Assembly: GCF_022482905.1 (NCBI RefSeq)
Contig: NZ_JAKVOI010000001.1
Coordinates: 620,001 to 684,000, forward strand
Source: Clostridium sp.
GTDB taxonomy: Bacteria > Bacillota > Clostridia > Clostridiales > Clostridiaceae
Direction: 5' to 3'
Length of the DNA: 64,000 nt
The notes below the pieces were generated by a model. That model did not search any database. It saw only the letters and a program-made list of their open reading frames with translations, and had not been told where the DNA came from. Shown here piece by piece: positions 37,408-60,650 of the stretch; positions within the stretch are counted from its first letter, which is position 1, and each line of letters opens with the position of its first letter. The position numbers and the translations under genes were made by a program.

Positions 37408-38608
37408 ATGAATTACATTCAAAAAGATACAAGGGAATTTCGTATGACTAGTATTGCCCTATTTGCAGGTGGGTTTAATACTTTTGCCATCTTATATAGT
37501 ACACAACCTTTAATGCCATACCTATCTAGGGAATTTTCTATTTCGCCAACTGTAGCTAGTTTATCATTGTCAGTGACAACTTGCATTTTAGCAGTAAGCA
37601 TGCTGATCTTTGGTTCATTATCAGAAGTATTGGGACGAAAGCCAATAATGTCTTTTGCTATATTTACATCATCAATTCTAGCAGTGTTGACTGCATTTGT
37701 TCCTAATTTTCATAGCTTACTTGTACTGAGAGGTTTGCAGGGCTTTGTTTTAGCAGGACTGCCAGCAATTGCTATGGCGTATATCAGTGAGGAAATTGAT
37801 AAGGCAAGCCTAGGTATGATTATGGGACTGTACATCAGTGGAAATTCTATTGGTGGAATGAGTGGACGTATTATTATTGGGGTTATTACTGATTTCTTTA
37901 ATTGGAGAGTGGCACTAGCTTGCATAGGAATTTTGGGAATTATAGCTGGTGTTGTATTTTGGAGCAAGTTGCCGGCATCCAAACATTTTGAACCACGTTC
38001 TTTTGAAATAAATGAATTATTAAAATCTATGGGCAGTCATCTGAAAAGTCCTGATTTGCCTATATTGTATTGGTTTTTTGGTTATGGGAAGTTTTGTTGC
38101 TTTATATAACTTTATTGGCTTTCAGCTAGTTGAGCCTCCTTATAGTCTTAGTTCAACCCTGGTCAGCTTTATTTTTGTTATTTATGTTGTTGGAACATTT
38201 AGTTCTACCTTTATGGGACATTTGGCAGATAATCAGGGAGAATATAAGGTTCTTTGTATTGCTCTTTTAACAATGTTTATTGGGATAGTTGTAACATTGG
38301 ATATGAATCTGGTGTTAAAAATTATTGGCATTGCTCTCCTGACTTTTGGCTTTTTTGGATGCCATTCAATTATTAGTAGTTGGATTGGTAAAATAGCAAC
38401 GCATGATAAGGCACAGGCTTCATCATTGTACCTGCTTTTTTATTATGTAGGCTCTAGTGTTGGAGGAACTGCGGGTGGAACCTTCTGGTCATCTTACGGA
38501 TGGCATGGAGTTGTTGGCATGATTGTATGCTTTTTAGTATTAGCCTTCTTTATTTCGATCCGACTGTCATCAATTACAACAGTTGTTAATGCAGAAAATC
38601 AAAGATAA
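37408..38608 (+). pseudogene. MFS transporter split by a frameshift in a T6 run
   Basis: Two overlapping frames together give a full-length 12-TM major facilitator of about 399 residues (YajR/YnfM/arabinose-efflux type): FGSLSEVLGRKPIM is the loop 2-3 motif A. The first frame ends at 38109 in GYGKFCCFI, and the second reads LVMGSFVALYNFIGFQLVEP onward. Removing one T from the TTTTTT at 38074-38079 joins them as YWFLVMGSFV. So this is either a recent inactivation, slippage-based switching, or a sequence error. AGGAGG precedes the ATG. Probably controlled by the divergent LysR. Confidence 0.8.
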
Positions 38609-39321
38609 TATGGATAGGTATTATCCTATGTTCAAGATACTAACCTTTCTATTTCAAAGAAGAGAGAGAACTAAAAAGACAAATAATAGAATGGGAAAGT
38701 AAGTAAAATAAATTGTCATTTTAAAATTAAATAGTATAGTGGTATTATATGTTGCTAATTAAAAAGACTAGCTGCTGATTCCATTAAATTAGTGGAACTG
38801 GTAATCTGAAAAGTCAAATAAAATAGTAACGTCCTGGAGACTATTCTAATATTCCGAATAATATTTTTATGAATAAGAATAAAAATGTTATAAGTGCGGT
38901 GAAGTTGGAGGAGAGTATATACTAACAGATAAAGCAAGGATATGATGGGAATAGTGAGATAAAAGGTGCTATGATTGTTAGCAGATTTAAAGTTAATCCC
39001 ATTAACAGGTATGATGTAAATTATGATTATAGTATATCTGTAAAATCTTTAAAAAATTTGTAGGAAAAATCACAGGAATAAAAAGGAATTTAAATAGATA
39101 AAATAAGGTACTTTAATAAGCCTTCGATAAAGTTGAATTGAAGGTTTATTGGAGTGCTTTAAATTATTTTACTTTCTATATAATAGGAAATTTCAAAAAA
39201 TAATGGATAATTGGTTTTTAAGGAAAAATAATAGATTTTTTGCATATTTATGGAGAAAAAACAATGCTTATACTATAATGAAGACATAAACTATAAATAT
39301 TTGAGAAATGGCGGGAGTTAT
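38609..39321. other. Non-coding region upstream of the helicase-PLD gene
   Basis: About 700 AT-rich bases without a recognisable gene. 39115-39150 forms an 11-bp stem (AATAAGCCTTC with GAAGGTTTATT, one G-U) and may be a terminator or a leader hairpin. At 38702-38725 AATAAATTGTCATT followed by TAAAAT resembles 13851-13870 next to the IS110 element; this may be a trace of an insertion sequence end. No promoter could be singled out. Confidence 0.35.
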
Positions 39322-42300
39322 ATGTCTGAAGATAAGATGAATTCTGTATTTGATTATTACATAGATTATGAATTTGAAACAAGAATGATGGATAATTCAA
39401 TTAAAGGTAAGGGTAAAGATGAACCTATTTCTATTTTAAAGGATGTAAATAAGATAAAAGGTATAATCAATAGCAAGAAAGCTGAAGCTATATATAATAA
39501 ACTAAAGAATCAAAAAAGTATTAAAGAAAGTAGTTCTAAAGATAAAGTGAAGCATGTTTATTCAAAAATTAAATATATGTTAGAGAATAAGCTTGAATTA
39601 AATGATTTTGTTGATGAATTTGATTTTGACAATAAGGATAAATTGGTAGTAGAAATACAAGCTATAAAGGAAGATAATAGAATTACCGTATGTTATCCGC
39701 TAATAGAAAGATCTGGCAAGACAAGAATAAAAAAGCCTGTTGTTACATTTAACTGTACAATAGCAGAAAATAATTTAAAAGTTGATAAATATTGTGTTAA
39801 CAAAGATAGTCTATTGACAATTTTGGCATATGCCCAGGATATCTCGCGTGGTGAATTTGAACTTGCAGTTGGAAATATATTTAAAAGTACATATGAAAAG
39901 ATTAATAGTTTTGATGGACAGGATTCAATCCATGAAATACTTAAACTAGTTGATGACGAGGTGTTTGCTTCATTTAATAATAATAAGATCAAATCTATAT
40001 TGGATTTTAACAGATATGAATATTGGGAAAAATTAAATAGGGTATTTATTACTTTGGAGGAACTAGATGAATTAAAATCACCTATATTTAGAGATGAATT
40101 AAAAGTATGCAAAGATAAATATTTAAAAGGAAAAGATGTGCCATCCGTACTTGAAAAATATATATTTGGAAATAGTAATGCTATTGAATATGAAAGTATT
40201 AAAGATAAATTTAAATTTCATTATGGTAGTTATACAGATAAATACCCTATAAATGAAAAGCAATGGGATATTGTAAAAATTTCAGATTATAACGAGCTGA
40301 TTTCTGTAAATGGTCCTCCGGGAACAGGTAAAACTACTCTTTTAAAAGAATTAATTGCAGATAATATAGTTAAGAAAACTAAATCATTAGTAGATGTGTG
40401 GAATAAAAAATGGACAAAGTGCTCAAATGGGGTCTTAATAAGTCCATTGGGAGGAAAAAATAAAAGGTCAATTGTAGTAACAAGTACAAATAATCTTGCA
40501 GTAGATAATATTGGACTTGAGCTTCTAAAAGAAATTCCTTATTTTACTGATTTAGCTGAAGATATTAAAGATGATTATAAGGGTATAATTTGTGCAAGGC
40601 TAGGAAAATATGCGAATTTAGAGTGCTTTTATAATGAGCAGTTTAATAAGTTAATAGAGAGTCTGGAAAATATAAGGAAAACCACTTTTGATGAAACATC
40701 TGTAGAAAAATTTAAAATTTTATGGGATAAATTAGGAAAAATAAAGAAGGACATTTCAACATTTTATGATGAAAGGAATAAATTATATGAACTTTTAGGA
40801 GTAAAGGATATAAATAATGATCTACTTAATAAAAATGAGAATGTCTATAAAGAAAGATTAATTGAGCAAAAAGGTATTATAGATAATATTAGTATTGAAG
40901 AAGACAAAGTTAAAGAGAATATTCATAATGTTGATCATGAAATTGAAAAATGCAAAAAGCTGAAAGATAAGTACAATGGTGATAAGAGTATTGAAAAAGA
41001 TAATAATAGAAATTTATTTAAAACTTTGGAAGAGTATAGAAAAAAGTCAGTAAATGGTTTTATAAAAAAGATAATGCTTTTTATATCCAATGAATGGAAA
41101 AATTTCTTTGAAAATTATCCTTCTGAGGAATATATACGTAATGAAATAGATAAATCAGATAAAAAATTAGAAAGACTGGAGATGGAAATTGATAAATTGG
41201 CATCGAATATTGATTCCAATGAGAACGAATATAAAAAGTTAATTGAAATGGAAAGTGTTTTCCCATCTAAAATTAAAGAAGCTGAAAATCTAAGTATAGA
41301 TTTAAGTAAAAAAATAGAGATTATAAACTCTTTTAAGAAAATATGCAAAAATCTTGAGCTGACTTTGAAAATGGATGATTTGTCTAGCAGAAGCTTATAT
41401 AATGTTTCAAATTGCAGTGAACTTTTAAAAATGCGCAAGAATATTTTTGATACAAGCCTTAAAGTGATGCAACTATATATAGTAGAGAATAGAGAAAGTA
41501 TTGCAAATAATTTAGGAATAATCTTACAGAAGAATGGTCAAATGTTTAGATGGTGTAAGCCTTTTTATAGTTCTAAGGATGAATATTGGGGGCAACATAA
41601 GGTTGGGATATTTGCACTTTGGGAAACTTTTTTTATGTGCTTTCCAGTTATTACAACAACATTGCATTCATTTAGGAAAGATATGATTCAAATGATTCCT
41701 AACTTAATCGATTTGATAATGGTAGATGAAGCCGCTCAAATATTGCCTCACTATCTATGTGCTCCCCTCTATAGAACAAGTAGATCCATAATAGTGGGTG
41801 ACACAAATCAATTGGAACCGATAAGGCTTCTAAAAAATGATTTAATCGAAAACTCTGGAGTTGACGAAGATCTGAGGAAGGATATATGTATTGAGAATAA
41901 CAGTGCCCAGGATTATGCTGATAGAAATTGTGATGTGTTTGAAAAGTTAAAAAATAAAAGGACAGGTATTATACTAAATGAGCATAGAAGATGTGAAGAA
42001 AGTATCATAAAATTTTCCAATAAATTTGTATACCATGATAAATTGATAGTAACCAACAAAGATAATAATGAAAAATTATTTGGAAATAATCTTATAGCCT
42101 TTGATGTTAGAGGAATTAAAGGAGAACAACATTTTAATAATCTTGAAATAAGTGCATGTAAAAAAATAGTGGAAGAATACAAAAATTCATATGGACATGA
42201 AGTTGTAAAGAGAATAGCTATAATTTCACCGTTTAATAAACAGGTTAGACAATTAAAAAATGAAATACATGAGGTTGAGATAGGTACTGTACATACATTC

Positions 42301-43179
42301 CAGGGAAGGCAGAAAGACGTTATTATATTTACTACAGTAATTGATGATGTAAGAGGCAATAAAGCAGGACTTTCCAATTTTATAGGTGCAAAAGGGAATT
42401 TATTGAATGTTGCTTTTTCCAGAGCTATTAAGCAATTTATTATGGTAGGAAATTTGAAGGCCATAGGAGAGGGAAGTTATTTCTTAAAAAAAGCCCTTGA
42501 TACTATTATGAAGAATGGCAAAATATACAGTTTTTTCAATATGACCTTTGATAAACAAAGTGAGAAGGATATAGAAAATTGGGAAAAAGCTTTTGATGTA
42601 TTGTCAGGAGGAAATACTAATATTCACATTCATAATATGGAGTTAATAAATTTTCTTAAGATACATTGCCCTAAAAATATTGTAGTTGGTTCTGCAGCAC
42701 ACTATGAAATCCTTAAAGAAATAATAAGACTTGCAAATAAAAGTATCTACATTTTTTCGCCATGGATATCTGATTATGTTGTGGATTATAAATTCTTGAG
42801 ATTGGTAATCAGTGCAATTAGAAAAGGAGTGAAAATATATATTTGCTTTGGATACAAGGGTAAAAATATTTCGCTGGATAGTAAAGAGAATATAAAAGAT
42901 GTTTTAATAGAGAACGGTGGATTTTACTACGATATTGAAAAAATAACAGAATCAATTTTTTATATGAAAGAAAAATTGGGAGTGAAAATTGTATATTCAC
43001 CTCCAGTACACACAAAGCTCCTGTTAATTGACGATGTATATATGTTGATTGGTTCCCATAATTGGTTATTGAACAGCGGTAAAGGGCGTAATGATAATTA
43101 TAAGGAAATGAGTTGTCTTGTTAAGAGTACAGATTCAATTGAATATGTTAAAGACAGGTATATAAATAATTTTTTATGA
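39322..43179 (+). CDS. SF1 helicase - phospholipase D fusion, Mokosh type II-like defence protein
   Basis: 1285 residues. A poorly conserved N-terminal part (1-300) is followed by an AAA_11/AAA_12 (UPF1/COG1112) helicase. Walker A is NGPPGTGKTTLL near residue 330, motif II VDEAAQILPHYL near 801, then IVGDTNQLEP, NEHRRCEESI, and motif V/VI GTVHTFQGRQKDVIIF and LNVAFSRAIKQFIMVGN. A charged coiled coil (about 470-700) is inserted between Walker A and motif II. The C-terminal 200 residues form a PLD nuclease/transferase domain with one HxK motif (VHTKLLLIDD near 1229) and GSHNWLLNSGKGRND. The fusion of an RNA-helicase-like SF1 core with PLD is the make-up of the single-gene Mokosh type II system (MkoC; from memory). 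ATG 39322 has GGCGGGAG before it; ATG 39250 would add 24 residues. It stands alone, flanked by mobile-element debris. Confidence 0.82.
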   Translation: MSEDKMNSVFDYYIDYEFETRMMDNSIKGKGKDEPISILKDVNKIKGIINSKKAEAIYNKLKNQKSIKESSSKDKVKHVYSKIKYMLENKLELNDFVDEFDFDNKDKLVVEIQAIKEDNRITVCYPLIERSGKTRIKKPVVTFNCTIAENNLKVDKYCVNKDSLLTILAYAQDISRGEFELAVGNIFKSTYEKINSFDGQDSIHEILKLVDDEVFASFNNNKIKSILDFNRYEYWEKLNRVFITLEELDELKSPIFRDELKVCKDKYLKGKDVPSVLEKYIFGNSNAIEYESIKDKFKFHYGSYTDKYPINEKQWDIVKISDYNELISVNGPPGTGKTTLLKELIADNIVKKTKSLVDVWNKKWTKCSNGVLISPLGGKNKRSIVVTSTNNLAVDNIGLELLKEIPYFTDLAEDIKDDYKGIICARLGKYANLECFYNEQFNKLIESLENIRKTTFDETSVEKFKILWDKLGKIKKDISTFYDERNKLYELLGVKDINNDLLNKNENVYKERLIEQKGIIDNISIEEDKVKENIHNVDHEIEKCKKLKDKYNGDKSIEKDNNRNLFKTLEEYRKKSVNGFIKKIMLFISNEWKNFFENYPSEEYIRNEIDKSDKKLERLEMEIDKLASNIDSNENEYKKLIEMESVFPSKIKEAENLSIDLSKKIEIINSFKKICKNLELTLKMDDLSSRSLYNVSNCSELLKMRKNIFDTSLKVMQLYIVENRESIANNLGIILQKNGQMFRWCKPFYSSKDEYWGQHKVGIFALWETFFMCFPVITTTLHSFRKDMIQMIPNLIDLIMVDEAAQILPHYLCAPLYRTSRSIIVGDTNQLEPIRLLKNDLIENSGVDEDLRKDICIENNSAQDYADRNCDVFEKLKNKRTGIILNEHRRCEESIIKFSNKFVYHDKLIVTNKDNNEKLFGNNLIAFDVRGIKGEQHFNNLEISACKKIVEEYKNSYGHEVVKRIAIISPFNKQVRQLKNEIHEVEIGTVHTFQGRQKDVIIFTTVIDDVRGNKAGLSNFIGAKGNLLNVAFSRAIKQFIMVGNLKAIGEGSYFLKKALDTIMKNGKIYSFFNMTFDKQSEKDIENWEKAFDVLSGGNTNIHIHNMELINFLKIHCPKNIVVGSAAHYEILKEIIRLANKSIYIFSPWISDYVVDYKFLRLVISAIRKGVKIYICFGYKGKNISLDSKENIKDVLIENGGFYYDIEKITESIFYMKEKLGVKIVYSPPVHTKLLLIDDVYMLIGSHNWLLNSGKGRNDNYKEMSCLVKSTDSIEYVKDRYINNFL

Positions 43180-43197: not shown

Positions 43198-43775
43198 GAG
43201 CTAAGAGTACAGGTTAAATTAAACAGCCTTGAAGATCTGGTACCAAAAGATCATTTATTGAGAAAAATAGATAAATCTATAGATTTTAATTTTATATATG
43301 ATGAAGTGGAAGAACTATATTCTGATTTTGGGAGGACAAGTATTGATCCGGTGGTTCTCATAAAGATAGTACTCATCCAGTATATCTTTGGAATACTTTC
43401 AATAAGACAAACTGTAAGAGATATTCAAGACTTACCTACATTTAACAAGAACTATGAGAGAAGATTTAAAAATACTGAAATATTCACAAACATATTTGTA
43501 AAAATACTTGAGACAGTTGAAAAAGAAGGATTTTTAGTACCTGAGCAGGTGTATATTGACTCAACCCACATAAAAGCAAGTGGTAAACAAGAAAAAATTC
43601 AAAAGAGTTAATATACAGGTTGAGGTGAAAAAACACAAAGATAAACTGGACAGCGAAATCGATGCCGACAGGCAGCATCATGGTAAAAAGCCATTAAAAA
43701 AACTAAAAAAATAGAAACAAGGGAAGTTGTGCAGAGCACTACCGATAAAGAAAGTTGAATGTTCTATAAAAATGA
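43198..43775 (+). pseudogene. IS1182-family transposase remnant
   Basis: The frame from about 43200 reads VQVKLNSLEDLVPKDHLLRK, IDFNFIYDEVEELYSDFGR, then NKNYERRFKNTEIFTNIFVK and VYIDSTHIKASGKQ, i.e. the DUF772-type N-terminus and first catalytic Asp region of IS1182 transposases, with a deletion in front of FNKNYERRF. After a stop at 43611 another frame continues (KLDSEIDADRQHHGKKPLKK, then VVQSTTDKES). The C-terminal catalytic half is missing. Confidence 0.75.
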
Positions 43776-44130
43776 GAAGGAGAAATGCTATGAGTGTGGA
43801 ATTCCGTGCGATTAAGCTAAAACAAATTATAATCGGATGGATGAACTGCTTCAAGCTGGCAGATATGAAAAGTACACTTAAAACATTAGATAAGTGGCTG
43901 AGAAAAAGGATTCGATTATGCTGTTGGAAACAATGGAAGAAAATCAAGACAAAGTATGATAATTTAAAAAGGCTTGGTATTGATGAATATAAAGCATGGG
44001 AGTATGCCATACAAGAAAAGGCTATTGGAGGATATCCAAAGCCCTATTTTGTCCAGAACACTATCTAATAAATCTTAAAGAGCAAGACTTTATAACATTA
44101 GCCGAGAGATATCTATAATTAGGTAATTCT
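43770..44130 (+). pseudogene. Group II intron maturase (reverse transcriptase) C-terminal remnant
   Basis: The sequence reads IIIGWMNCFKLADMKSTLKT, then LDKWLRKRIRLCCWKQWKKI and KTKYDNLKRLGIDEYKAWEY, the maturase/thumb end of group II intron-encoded proteins. After a frameshift the last residues can be read as LAERYL. The reverse-transcriptase fingers and palm are gone; the remnant is fused to the IS1182 remnant. It is followed in the right order by intron domains V and VI. Confidence 0.75.
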
Positions 44131-44133
44131 TAT

Positions 44134-44212
44134 TGAACCGCTGTGTACCGAACGATACGCACAATGGTGTGAAAGGTCGCTGAATAAAATAATTATTCAG
44201 CTCCTACTCGAT
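44134..44212 (+). ncRNA. Group II intron domains V and VI (3' end, orphan)
   Basis: GAACCGCTGTGTACCGAACG and the following GATACGCACAATGGTGTG form the domain V type hairpin of bacterial introns whose ORF ends as above. Domain VI follows as a perfect stem (GCTGAATAA with TTATTCAGC, about 44180-44201), then the 3' end CTCCTACTCGAT, the usual terminal sequence. Domains I-IV are missing, so it cannot splice. Confidence 0.65.
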
Positions 44213-44379
44213 TGTTAAAGACATTAGCTATAGTTGTAGTTAACAATTCTTCTTTATAATCAGCATTGTAAGAAAAAACAAATGTAATGCTTTTATAATA
44301 GAGGAGCAAAAAAAGACAGGATTTACACTGGCGGCTGATATATAATATAGAAAAACTTAGAGGAGGGAGTTGATCTTAG

Positions 44380-51472: not shown

Positions 51473-51689
51473 TATGTGGAAAATTAATCAAGTCTTAAAA
51501 TAACCTCAATTGTAAATTAAATTGCAACCCTTGCGATTCCAGTTTCACATAATCCATACAAAAATAAATATTTATAATATGTGGTTGCATCTTGGATTGC
51601 AGAAGATTGGCGATTAGCCAGTCTTTTTGTTTGCTAATTGTTATAATTTCATATATCCTTTATTAGTTGGCGGCAGAAATGGAGGATAT

Positions 51690-52985
51690 ATGTCAAAGTT
51701 TTTTATTTATGAAGCGAGATTAGATTTGCAAAAGTACCTAAAGGAAGGCCTTTCATTTAAAGAAATCGCTCGCCGTATGGGAAAAGATCCAACCACTATT
51801 TCCAGAGAAGTTCGTAAATACAGTTCTGAAGTAGCAACAGGCTATCCTGGATTTCCATTTAACGCTTGCAAGAATCGCTTTAACTGTAGATTAAAAAGCA
51901 TTTGTGGAAAGGACTGTAGCAGGAAATCTGTAACCTATTGTAAACTATGCTCTTCCTGTAACACGAACTGCAAAGAGTACATAGAAGAAATATGTACTGC
52001 AAAATATCGTGTTCCTTATGTCTGCAATGGCTGTGAAGCCATTGGCAAATGCACTCTCATGAAAAGTATCTATGATGCTGAACATGCTCACATCAAAGCT
52101 CACGAGAAGATTTCTAACTCTAGAAGTGGTCTTTGCGTTTCTGAAAATGAAATTAGCAGATTGAATCGTATAATTTCACCACTCATTCAAAATGGGCAGT
52201 CTGTCAATCAGATTTACATTAATCATCAGGATGAGTTGATGTGTAGTGAAAAGACCATTTATAACTATATTGATGCCTGTCTTTTTGATATTAGAAATAT
52301 CGACCTTCCACGAAAAGTAAGATTTCGTGAACGCTATAAAAAGCCGGAGTTCAAGGTGGATAAAGGCTGCCGCATTAGCCGCAACTACAAAGATTTTGAA
52401 ACCTTTATTAACAAGAATCCTGATACTGCAATTGTGCAGATGGATTCTGTCATGGGAGTCAAGGGCGGTAAATGTCTTTTAACTATTCACTTTGTTGACT
52501 GCAGCCTGATGCTTGCGTCCCTGAGGGATGCCAACACTTCAAAGTCTGTTACTGATGTATTTAATCATCTTGATAAGATACTTGGCCAGGAATTGTTTTC
52601 AGAGTTATTTCCTATCATTCTTACAGACAACGGGAGTGAGTTTTCCAACCCAAAAGCCATTGAATATCGGGATAGATTTCCATTTTTGCGTACACATATA
52701 TTTTATTGCGATGCAGGTAGTCCTTATCAAAAAGGTGCTATCGAAGTAAACCATGAATTGATTCGTCGGGTTCTTCCAAAAGGTAGTAGCTTTAATGAAC
52801 TTACACAGGATGATATCAATCTGATGATGAATCATATTAATTCCTACAAAAGAAAAAAGCTGAATAAACGCAGTCCGTACGAAACATTCAGCTTTTACCA
52901 CGGAGAAGAGGTTTTGCATAAACTTGGATGTTATCCGGTTGCCGCCGGAGATATCATGCTAAAACTAGCTCTTCTTAAAAAGTAA
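51690..52985 (+). CDS. IS30-family transposase
   Basis: 431 residues. The N-terminal helix-turn-helix reads LKEGLSFKEIARRMGKDPTT, then ISREVRKY. Next comes a Cys-rich probable zinc region (residues about 60-125, CGKDCSRKSVTYCKLCSSCN), unusual compared with classical IS30 enzymes. The DDE core has Asp in IVQMDSVMGVKGGK, Asp in IILTDNGSEFSNP and Glu in YQKGAIEVNHELIR. Full length, no stops. GGAGG before ATG 51690. Probably active. Confidence 0.92.
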   Translation: MSKFFIYEARLDLQKYLKEGLSFKEIARRMGKDPTTISREVRKYSSEVATGYPGFPFNACKNRFNCRLKSICGKDCSRKSVTYCKLCSSCNTNCKEYIEEICTAKYRVPYVCNGCEAIGKCTLMKSIYDAEHAHIKAHEKISNSRSGLCVSENEISRLNRIISPLIQNGQSVNQIYINHQDELMCSEKTIYNYIDACLFDIRNIDLPRKVRFRERYKKPEFKVDKGCRISRNYKDFETFINKNPDTAIVQMDSVMGVKGGKCLLTIHFVDCSLMLASLRDANTSKSVTDVFNHLDKILGQELFSELFPIILTDNGSEFSNPKAIEYRDRFPFLRTHIFYCDAGSPYQKGAIEVNHELIRRVLPKGSSFNELTQDDINLMMNHINSYKRKKLNKRSPYETFSFYHGEEVLHKLGCYPVAAGDIMLKLALLKK

Positions 52986-54087: not shown

Positions 54088-56622
54088 TCAATCTTTCAGG
54101 TTATTGTTTACCTCTGACGACAACCTGAATTTTAATTTTTCTATTTTTAAGTAGGATTTTGAAAGTATCTTTGGCCAGCATCTAACATAATCCATTATCT
54201 TATCAAAAGATAATATGGAGAAACCAGTTTCTGAAATTTTGCGAATTAAATATTTATGCTCGTATTTTGCAAGAATACCCAATTCTTCTTCTGTAAATTC
54301 AATAATTTCAGTGTCATCCATGCTGGATACGGAGATTAAGTCATAGTAGACTTCGTATAGCATGTCAGGAATAAGCTTTATATTGTCTCTAATAAATTTC
54401 TTTTGTACCTTGTCGAGTTTTTTCCAGCACTCGTCGGGATTGAGACTCAAATTGTCCATGCCTTTCTGTATTAAAATGTAGTTATAATTAAAGTCTATAG
54501 AGAGTTCATCGATTTTCTCATTGAAAAATTCTTCTCTCATTAAATGGCGATAAAACTCATCCTCGTCAACATGCAGTCTTAATTGATCTTTAGGCGGCAG
54601 ACAGGATTGCTCCCATTTTTTTGAATTTGTCAGTCGACTCATTTCCAGTATTGCTTCCATGGATCTTGATTCATGCTTATATGTGCTTATTTTCAAGAGT
54701 GCCCGTAATACGCCTCTGTCTATCTGAGCTTCTCCTCTTTCATTTATGAGATGAGGTACTTTGCGTTCCATAAGGGATCTCAGCAGCATTGCCCTTCGGA
54801 TAATGAACAGCTGATCACGCCGTTCATCTGTCTGATTGAGACCCAGGGTATTTACATAGCCTCTCAGTCTGCTTATGAAATCAGGACCTTTTGCACTTTC
54901 AAATTCTCTGTTGAATTGCTTATATTCAGTTTCATCTGTGATGTTTTCCCCGCAAAATTCTTCAAAGGTACTGCTGGTTCCACCTGCAAATACAAAAATG
55001 GCTTTCCCGACAGGATGTATTGAATTGTCTTCTCTGAATATACCATCCTGCATAGGAGCTAGGAAATACTTCAACCATCCAAGCTTTTTTTCGAAGGTTG
55101 AATCGAACTCATCGAAAAACACCAATGGAATTTTGCCCATGAGAGAAATATCCCTTACTTTATGAAAGCTTATAATTAAATCCGACAATGTTTGAAACTG
55201 GGATAAATTGAAGTCCAGCTTTTTAATCAGATTTGGAGCTACACAGGAAGCAACCTCCGTTACCCCGAAAGATTTTCCGGAACCAGGTGTTCCAAACACG
55301 GCAATGCAGAGAGGACGAACTACATTTCTGGAAAGTATGTATTCCGACATGAGATTTTTAATACTCTTGTAGGCCTCAAATTCATCTCTGTCAACAGTTT
55401 TTAGTTTGCCAAATTGTGCTATTGGTATATATTTAAGGGCACTCTCCTCTCCGTTTCTAACGATGTCATAGGCTATTTCAGCAAGGTTGGTGGAAGTCTT
55501 GTCTTTTATAATGTACCAGGATGATTGATATTTGGGATTATTTGAATTAGGTATTTCAACATCCTGTATATATTTTTTATATATGAAGTCATTTTCTCCT
55601 TCACTGAAAATTGAAGGACTTGGAAAAATGTCTTCTACGATATTTCTGCCAAAACCGTGTTTGAAATATTTTTGTGTGGCAACAATTCCCTCTCTTATAC
55701 CATCGTCAATGGATTCATCAATAGATTTATCTTTGCGCCTTCCCAAAACCATGGATTTTGCCAGCCCGGCAACAAAACAGGAAGTAAGTCCGTACATTTT
55801 ACCGTTGATCTGCTTTATTAGATCTCCCTCAAAGGCATATGTCAAAAAATACAGCTTGGATTTGGTCTCGCCGTTATTTTTATAATATATGGCACCTTCC
55901 AAACCAAGAGGAACAATCAGGCGGCTGCATTTTGACAGAAAAGTAAGGCTTGGATTGTTTTTTATCTGCCATACAAAGTCCAGTGCCGTTCTTTCCCAGG
56001 AAAGATTCTTGCTTATATTGACCTCCTTGGAACGCAGGTCATCTCCGTTTATAACTATTAGAGTATTCTTCATATGAAACTTTTCGAGATGCTTCCATAA
56101 TTTCGTGGAACTGGAAGGGTTATCCATTTTGTATATAATTGTAGGATGGCTGCCGGGATCTTTTAAAGCCGAGGGCCAGAATTCTTCATTGTCGTTAAAA
56201 CCATTGTTTTCGTCATCAAGTATAATCAGGTCGGCATTTTTATTATCAGTCACAATTGGAAACAATTTTGGATTGCCAAAAAGTATATCCGTAAAACCCA
56301 GAAATGATTTTACTCTATATATTCTGTTTTTATTTTTCTCATCCGATGCTGATGGAAAGAGCCCTAATTGTATGGTGGAATTCAGAAGCCCGTCAGGCAG
56401 ATGATTCTTGTCATAGTTTATTTTTGGCGAAACAACATTTGCACCTGTGGACAGAGCTACAAATTTGGCCAGAAGCAATGCTTCTCCTTCACTTAACCTG
56501 CTGCATATATGTGGATACTGCTGCCAACTCAAGTCACTAATATACTCGTTGTTGATTTGCCAGAATAGTAGGTTGACACATACATCCCCTGATACAACAA
56601 TATTAAAATTCTTGATTTCCAT
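54088..56622 (-). CDS. AAA+ ATPase with sugar-kinase-like N-terminal half, unknown function
   Basis: 844 residues. The AAA+ core has Walker A VFGTPGSGKSFGV (near residue 445) and Walker B PLVFFDEFDS (near 505), followed by FVFAGGTSS (sensor-1 like) and DFISRLRGYV (Arg finger region). The first 330 residues resemble a PfkB/ribokinase fold by eye: VVSGDVCVNL at the start, ADLIILDDENNGF, TIIYKMDNPSSS, LIVINGDDLR, and LEGAIYY followed by YGLTSCFVAGLAKSMV where kinases carry the catalytic GAGD. Catalytic residues of sugar kinases are not convincingly kept. The last 200 residues are unrecognised. No membrane segment. It is divergent from the DUF2207 gene and convergent with the XRE pair. I do not know what it does. 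Confidence 0.7.
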   Translation of the reverse strand: MEIKNFNIVVSGDVCVNLLFWQINNEYISDLSWQQYPHICSRLSEGEALLLAKFVALSTGANVVSPKINYDKNHLPDGLLNSTIQLGLFPSASDEKNKNRIYRVKSFLGFTDILFGNPKLFPIVTDNKNADLIILDDENNGFNDNEEFWPSALKDPGSHPTIIYKMDNPSSSTKLWKHLEKFHMKNTLIVINGDDLRSKEVNISKNLSWERTALDFVWQIKNNPSLTFLSKCSRLIVPLGLEGAIYYKNNGETKSKLYFLTYAFEGDLIKQINGKMYGLTSCFVAGLAKSMVLGRRKDKSIDESIDDGIREGIVATQKYFKHGFGRNIVEDIFPSPSIFSEGENDFIYKKYIQDVEIPNSNNPKYQSSWYIIKDKTSTNLAEIAYDIVRNGEESALKYIPIAQFGKLKTVDRDEFEAYKSIKNLMSEYILSRNVVRPLCIAVFGTPGSGKSFGVTEVASCVAPNLIKKLDFNLSQFQTLSDLIISFHKVRDISLMGKIPLVFFDEFDSTFEKKLGWLKYFLAPMQDGIFREDNSIHPVGKAIFVFAGGTSSTFEEFCGENITDETEYKQFNREFESAKGPDFISRLRGYVNTLGLNQTDERRDQLFIIRRAMLLRSLMERKVPHLINERGEAQIDRGVLRALLKISTYKHESRSMEAILEMSRLTNSKKWEQSCLPPKDQLRLHVDEDEFYRHLMREEFFNEKIDELSIDFNYNYILIQKGMDNLSLNPDECWKKLDKVQKKFIRDNIKLIPDMLYEVYYDLISVSSMDDTEIIEFTEEELGILAKYEHKYLIRKISETGFSILSFDKIMDYVRCWPKILSKSYLKIEKLKFRLSSEVNNNLKD

Positions 56623-60360: not shown

Positions 60361-60650
60361 AAAAAACCCTTCGTCCTATTATAGGACGAAGGGTAGAATC
60401 CGTGGTACCACCTAATTTTGTACAAATGTACACTCTTTGTATAGTACGGGCATATATGTGCCGATACTATCTCCCTTTTAACAGTGGGATTCTGTTAAAG
60501 TCTACTTACCTATAAGGCTTTCGGTTTAAAACTCCGTGACTACCTTCATTACATCAATCATGAGAAGTTTTCACCTGCGTTCTCTCTCTTTGTTTCAAGT
60601 ATGTAATTACTCTTTCACATCAATGTATTTACTATATTATATCATATGAT
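60361..60650 (-). promoter_or_regulatory. T-box leader of the aminotransferase gene
   Basis: Read on the minus strand: the T-box sequence AGGTGGTACCACGG (plus 60400-60413) is followed by a perfect terminator stem with T6 (ACCCTTCGTCC pairing across 60366-60394, run at 60361-60366). Upstream lies a stem I candidate whose base pairs ATTACAT with ATGTAAT and which contains AGAGAGAGAACG. In the stem I loop CATGATTG lies unpaired, allowing ATG (Met) or ATT (Ile) as specifier; I cannot decide. High charging leads to termination, low charging to read-through (established mechanism). Confidence 0.85.

Follow-up and report, generated by a model that had tools for sequence, protein, structure and literature searches.

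Does a lone helicase–nuclease gene in a Clostridium genome belong to the Mokosh type II anti-phage systems and, if so, by its architecture, by its descent, or by both? The question is raised by an mkoC-like gene in a 64,000-nucleotide stretch of Clostridium sp. (contig NZ_JAKVOI010000001.1, positions 620,001–684,000), the whole of which is referred to here as the window. An earlier reading of the letters alone (the original prediction) had taken the gene for a fusion of a UPF1-like superfamily 1 (SF1) helicase with a C-terminal phospholipase D (PLD) domain, matching Mokosh type II, which passages of PMC10013915 and PMC11672841 define as a single gene with an N-terminal COG1112-type RNA helicase and a C-terminal PLD nuclease. 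Judging from the sequence comparisons given below, we put at roughly 80% the probability that its product defends against phage as a Mokosh type II-like protein made from one gene, belonging to a branch of its own that was encountered here in Bacillota. As a member of that type it is mostly unremarkable, and its difference in lineage is real.

Architecture and the MkoC profile

The mechanical call of the open reading frame (ORF) spans 39250–43179; the alternative ATG at 39322 was preferred because GGAG lies directly upstream of it, giving 1285 codons in one stop-free frame. Pfam matches, all above the curated cut-off, were obtained for AAA_11 (5.8e-18), AAA_12 (1.7e-25) and PLDc_2 (2e-8), bearing out the claim that one protein joins a UPF1-like SF1 helicase to a C-terminal PLD domain, and the same scan matched no kinase domain. 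The five motifs on which that claim had been built (GPPGTGKTT, DEAAQ, HRRCEES at residues 888–894, HTFQGRQKD at residues 991–999, and VHTKLLLID at residues 1229–1237) all lie in this one intact frame, each occurring once; GSHNW comes next, at residues 1244–1248. The COG1112 label is taken from the literature passages, the helicase being assigned here through AAA_11, AAA_12 and the motifs. Within helicase domain 1, residues 440–700 are rich in charged residues (DEKR 39.5%) and poor in proline and glycine (2.7%), with a heptad-like hydrophobic periodicity in 470–560 and 630–700; judged by composition and periodicity, without a dedicated coiled-coil predictor, this fits the inserted coiled coil that had been proposed.

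The PADLOC MkoC profile was matched by the window protein over almost its whole length (1.7e-145, 484.7 bits, positions 34–1132 of 1136), with lower scores for MkoA (141.7 bits) and MkoB (61.6). Together with the single gene, the helicase N-terminal to the PLD and the one His-Lys-Asp (HKD) motif, this is the Mokosh type II architecture. For comparison, the E. coli-type protein L050 (WP_000344098.1, 1171 aa), which we take to be, or to be close to, the experimentally tested protein, scored 1689 bits over positions 1–1135 of the same profile (PDLC03924).

The profile score needs care. Among 206 genomes of the GTDB family, 13 (own included) held a match to MkoC at 1e-50 or lower, and only in the window genome did the match reach the PLD end. 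Six of those 13 (L021–L026) have frames of 979–1032 aa that score 924–964 bits with the match stopping at profile position 963–969; none of the six shows the HKD pattern in its open frame, and one (L022) has a stop within the profile match. Two of these six, compared against MkoC by hmmscan, scored 963 and 929 bits. The MkoC profile is not diagnostic for Mokosh type II: it scores PLD-less helicases highly, and the PLD therefore needs separate checking. Any Mokosh type II call made by PADLOC should accordingly be inspected for its nuclease domain. One further match (L028, genome G035; MkoC positions 167–1022) carries nine in-frame stops and is a decaying copy.

For the window protein, the C-terminal 207 residues alone matched MkoC positions 986–1132 at 2.4e-23, MkoB nearly as well (1.4e-19) and DrmC weakly (7.8e-6). 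A profile of the domain compared with the PDB gave the nuclease NucT as the top match (3e-5), followed by PLD1, with mitochondrial cardiolipin hydrolase matched weakly (0.024). The predicted model of the last 232 residues is alpha/beta, with a mean predicted local distance difference test score (pLDDT) of 76.3 and a predicted template modelling score of 0.76; its first 26 residues fall below a pLDDT of 50. Exactly one HxKx4D pattern occurs in the whole protein, as the original prediction had said. A PLD enzyme with one HKD motif holds half of the usual two-HKD site and completes it by joining a second copy; by analogy, the PLDs of two window-protein molecules would pair into a dimer.

A contig scan with a three-row alignment returned 11 related loci from 154 candidate stretches: seven in Paenibacillus and one each in Clostridium sp. 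MCC353, a Lachnospiraceae metagenome-assembled genome (MAG), Ruminiclostridium hungatei and an uncultured Clostridia MAG. Counting also a viral-contig locus (L049), probably the same chromosomal gene as the Ruminiclostridium hungatei one (L045) because frame length and motifs are equal, Walker A and the HKD motif are intact in one open frame in 12 of 12 close relatives. In a 13-row alignment of the window protein, 10 of the 11 relatives, the E. coli-type protein and a fusion from a faecal contig, the window protein is 32–36% identical to the Bacillota relatives and 20% to the E. coli-type. Residues G331–K337, D802, E803, H1230, K1232, D1237, S1245 and N1247 are invariant in all 13 rows, which span both fusion types. 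Window-type and E. coli-type PLDs share a common ancestry, as an hhalign comparison shows (99.3, 3.6e-20).

Lineage of the helicase and the PLD

Helicase trees were built from the helicase columns only, excluding the insert and the PLD. Left out were L038 (same values as L039), L027 (a 346-aa frame), L028 (its nine stops), L033, L034 and L049 (taken to duplicate L045, L046 and L045, respectively) and the core helicases L008, L011, L012, L014, L015, L016, L019 and L020, eight core helicases being sufficient. Long-branch rows were also dropped: L006, L063 and L032 from the first 35-row tree, L006 and L032 from all later trees, and L097 from the 42-row tree and from the 35-row tree without the far outgroup.

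The 11 window-type rows fall on one side of a branch with support of 90/89 in the first 35-row tree and 97/97 in a later one. Holding window-type and E. coli-type helicases (L061 counted with the latter) together as one clade was rejected by the approximately unbiased (AU) test in the first 35-row tree (p 6.8e-13), because the PLD-less helicases of ~1000 aa side with the E. coli-type. The rejection held when five MkoA proteins and a Hymenobacter fusion were added (42 rows, p 2.1e-5) and when the far outgroup was removed (35 rows, p 2.9e-73). Of the identification as Mokosh type II, the architecture thus stands, and a shared helicase lineage with the E. coli-type MkoC (AU p 2.1e-5 or lower) does not; as far as the alignments reach, the window protein can be described as type II by architecture and as a separate branch by descent, within Bacillota in the genomes covered here.

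This raises the possibility that a type I-like helicase lacking the kinase and an MkoB-like PLD were fused independently, in an architecture that converged with type II; the AU rejections above point that way, although the balance of evidence leaves such a fusion a tentative account. In the best 42-row tree, a branch with 97/96 support has window-type helicases, MkoA and four other PLD-less helicases together on one of its sides, and joining window-type rows with MkoA was not rejected (p 0.34 with 42 rows, 0.47 without the far outgroup). All 11 window-type PLDs and all five MkoB domains carry a short motif following a strand, [FY]G[YFLI], which none of the eight E. coli-type ones has; the pattern was picked after viewing the alignment. 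However, the test also allowed window-type, E. coli-type and the ~1000-aa PLD-less rows to be joined (p 0.16 and 0.46), so one fusion with later PLD loss may have occurred instead, and L061, PLD-less within the E. coli-type helicase clade, suggests that such losses do occur. Mean identities also run the other way: the window helicase is 30.1 and 28.0% identical to the PLD-less rows, 25.5% to the E. coli-type and 22.8% to MkoA, and its PLD is 21.3% identical to the E. coli-type PLD and 18.5% to MkoB. Moreover, long branches affect the helicase trees, and MkoA sits on one. The PLD tree holds three groups with no outside root and is therefore silent on one versus two PLD fusions; one fusion followed by PLD loss and two separate fusions are both possible histories that would fit the trees. 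We considered a close affinity of the window-type to MkoA and did not adopt it as established, as the grouping with MkoA and that with the E. coli-type and PLD-less helicases are both allowed. With the odds somewhat against it, one might go further and see in these kinase-free, single-chain Bacillota proteins a third Mokosh lineage, with its own fusion and its own N-terminal sensor region, converged on type II and possibly derived from a type I-like helicase and an MkoB-like PLD.

A further helicase–PLD fusion was seen on an Acinetobacter soli plasmid (L097, 887–4477), with 331 bits to MkoC and a very long branch. It lies outside both fusion clades of the helicase tree, carries an MkoB-like YGY motif and stands beside a HipA-family toxin gene.

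Insertion site, distribution and other features

The gene had been placed between decayed mobile elements, and this was borne out, with an intron RNA remnant upstream and a transposase fragment and a second intron remnant downstream (Table 1). Homology to sister genomes ends at 38628 on the left, in a major facilitator superfamily (MFS) gene (89%, G004), and resumes at 44245–44286 on the right, in the AraC–ClpP genes (85–89%; G002, G005 and G008); between these ends, no homology of at least 80 bp was found in the five sister-genome stretches compared. Compared with those genomes, the ~5.6 kb holding mkoC is inserted DNA. G+C content is 25–31% along the gene versus 31–43% around it. Beyond the upstream intron remnant comes the MFS transporter gene (37408–38608), which is not a mobile element and is broken into two overlapping frames; its counterpart in sister genome G004 (L054) is one continuous 401-aa frame.

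Given intron pieces in the same orientation on both sides, we considered whether mkoC lies inside one group II intron. The upstream remnant is 82% identical to part of L090, where a reverse-transcriptase ORF follows (597-aa frame, RVT_1), and the downstream remnant matches, over 43887–44216, the DNA of L089, whose 482-aa frame carries RVT_1 and GIIM. Neither L089 nor L090 is similar in DNA to the opposite flank of the window gene, and they resemble each other over only 153 bp at 71%. A one-intron origin was rejected because the two remnants are of these different types, without similarity to the opposite flank. Two intron remnants in the same orientation and a transposase fragment give the impression that elements have landed here repeatedly.

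The mkoC-like gene is accessory and patchily distributed. It was found through the PLD end in one of 13 genus genomes, with one full copy in its own genome, and the window protein as query matched at 1e-45 in 3 of 391 genomes sampled within the class (own included) and in 1 of 225 in the order. By tblastn, 654 plasmid and six phage records matched, none with at least 80% of the protein at one place, and the DNA of the locus showed no similarity to plasmids in near mode. MkoB was found at E ≤ 1e-40 in none of 291 class genomes (own included), but a control matched nowhere either, so its absence is not established.

Table 1. Features of the mkoC-like gene and its flanks, in window coordinates.
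Feature	Position	Strand	Basis
Group II intron RNA remnant, upstream	38710..38944	+	Rfam RF02004 at 38793-38921, 45.9 bits, cut-off 34.5
mkoC-like gene, helicase–PLD fusion, 1285 aa	39322..43179	+	PADLOC MkoC; Pfam AAA_11, AAA_12, PLDc_2
N-terminal region, residues 1-310, candidate sensor/regulatory part	39322..40251	+	No Pfam match
Walker A / motif I GPPGTGKTT, residues 331-339	40312..40338	+	Single occurrence in protein
Charged insert in helicase domain 1, residues 440-700, coiled-coil-like	40639..41421	+	Composition, periodicity
Walker B / motif II DEAAQ, residues 802-806	41725..41739	+	Single occurrence in protein
Helicase second core domain, AAA_12, residues 872-1045, later motifs	41935..42456	+	Pfam
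PLD domain, PLDc_2, residues 1132-1276	42715..43149	+	Pfam 2e-8; MkoC end; PDB match; model
HKD catalytic signature HxKx4D...GSxN	43009..43065	+	Motif search
Transposase fragment, DUF772	43258..43611	+	Pfam 1.3e-7
3' remnant of a second, different group II intron (maturase GIIM and 3' end)	43727..44216	+	Pfam GIIM 2.9e-16

Elsewhere in the window, a gene on the reverse strand (54088–56622) encodes an uncharacterised ATPase of 844 aa that has an FGTPGSGKS P-loop but matches nothing in Pfam, PADLOC or PHROGs. It lies near a transposase-like ORF (51627–52985), named IS30 by eye, for which Pfam gives helix-turn-helix domains only. A T-box leader was found at 60379–60632 on the reverse strand (112.8 bits against a cut-off of 93).

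Alternatives, proposed working and known systems

The protein might be a housekeeping UPF1-like helicase of RNA or DNA metabolism that happens to bear a PLD, since its helicase motifs conform to the general UPF1/IGHMBP2 type, NCBIfam gave sub-cut-off matches only, headed by IGHMBP2-family helicases, and all 13 genus genomes hold another helicase with a local match to MkoC. Those helicases, however, match within profile positions 607–1026 only, the PLD end is reached in one of the 13, and the gene is inserted beside mobile-element remnants; the window chromosome carries one other AAA_12 helicase, and the helicase core of its group is ~20% identical to the window protein (mean of seven rows in the trees, 19.6%), rather than a closer match. 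A housekeeping role therefore appears highly improbable. Little more probable is a silent relic that lost its function while trapped between decayed elements: the flanks are indeed decayed (two intron remnants, a transposase fragment and the frame-split MFS gene), but the gene itself keeps its stop-free frame, its catalytic residues and a plausible ribosome-binding site, in contrast to the relative in genome G035 with its nine stops. Rather unlikely, yet with more in its favour, is action on phage or plasmid DNA, degraded as in other helicase–nuclease systems, in place of RNA; the weak DrmC match and the top PDB match to NucT are compatible with a DNA target, as are SMUBP-2 and DNA2 among the PDB matches of the helicase part. 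Against this, Mokosh is described in passages of PMC11291487, PMC10013915 and PMC11672841 with an RNA helicase or with action on viral transcripts.

For the preferred reading as a type II-like defence protein, the genomic surroundings of the relatives offer partial support. Neighbours were listed for 8 of the 11 loci, and four of these have clear defence-type neighbours by PADLOC: a type IV restriction endonuclease-like protein at L042 (1 of 1 scanned), a GmrSD-like protein at L043 (2 of 3 matched), PDC-S23 at L044 (1 of 2), and a metallophosphatase–ATPase and a Schlafen-group helicase at L048 (2 of 2). The E. coli-type relative is located among annotated anti-phage genes, and a Vibrio one adjoins drt3a/drt3b. 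Several observations weigh on the other side. The 15 neighbour proteins scanned, from all of the eight listed loci but L046, were chosen by eye, with no random-gene control; none matched at L039 (0 of 2) or L040 (0 of 3), and at L045 one of two gave a weak P-loop match only. In the window itself, a PADLOC scan of three genes near mkoC returned no match, so that no local defence island was seen. The helicase clade differs from that of the E. coli-type MkoC, a test of lineage that lies outside the architectural definition. The full HKD pattern occurs in seven of eight E. coli-type fusions; the exception, on a Yoonia plasmid (L059, 3001–6420), has a PLD without it, and the nuclease site is therefore not universally kept among E. 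coli-type fusions. Finally, the N-termini of window-type and E. coli-type proteins align over 87 columns beside the P-loop only. With no Pfam match to residues 1–328 and nothing below E 0.28 in an N-terminal alignment compared with the PDB, the divergence claimed for the first ~300 residues held up; the phage-sensing role attached to them is a putative one.

How might such a protein work? SF1 UPF1-like helicases bind nucleic acid and move along it using ATP. In the window protein, the ATP-driven helicase, comprising the N-terminal region, domain 1 with its insert and domain 2, would load on nucleic acid of phage origin, with RNA or a structure containing RNA as the most likely substrate, and would move along or remodel that nucleic acid. 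The C-terminal PLD, holding half an active site, would pair with that of a second molecule, and the paired PLDs may then cut the bound nucleic acid or switch on an abortive response. Anti-phage activity, an RNA target, dimerisation and N-terminal sensing are all inferred. Given a dissimilar N-terminus and kept helicase and HKD sites, comparing the lineages would let the sensing and cutting parts be told apart.

Among the matches listed in the open-licence PubMed Central literature, no title is devoted to the Mokosh defence system. The passages available characterise it by its constituent domains and by an action presumed to target viral transcripts or the genetic material of the phage (PMC11291487, PMC10013915, PMC11672841); one of them, in Nature Communications, states that Mokosh degrades foreign viral transcripts and that MkoA and MkoB have domains homologous to the PIWI-interacting RNA pathway (PMC11291487).

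Set beside the known systems, the window protein resembles the type II MkoC of L050 in being a single gene with an SF1 UPF1-like helicase, a C-terminal one-HKD PLD and invariant catalytic residues; it differs in being 114 aa longer, in being only 20% identical and in having a helicase that is not sister to that of L050, as well as in its [FY]GY-like motif, which all eight E. coli-type PLDs lack. The PLD-less MkoC-like helicases (L021–L026) belong to the same helicase superfamily, but their match ends before the PLD and they have no HKD motif. For type I, we used operons from Anabaena, Streptomyces, Nostoc, Tolypothrix and Pseudanabaena plasmids (L100–L104); three of the five were scanned and proved to be genuine type I, with adjacent genes scoring 783–903 bits to MkoA and 259–290 bits to MkoB. 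Type I likewise pairs a UPF1-like helicase with a PLD, and its MkoB shares the [FY]G[YFLI] motif with the window-type; unlike the window protein, a single chain without a kinase match, it consists of two genes, with MkoA starting in a protein-kinase-like part according to annotations and PADLOC.

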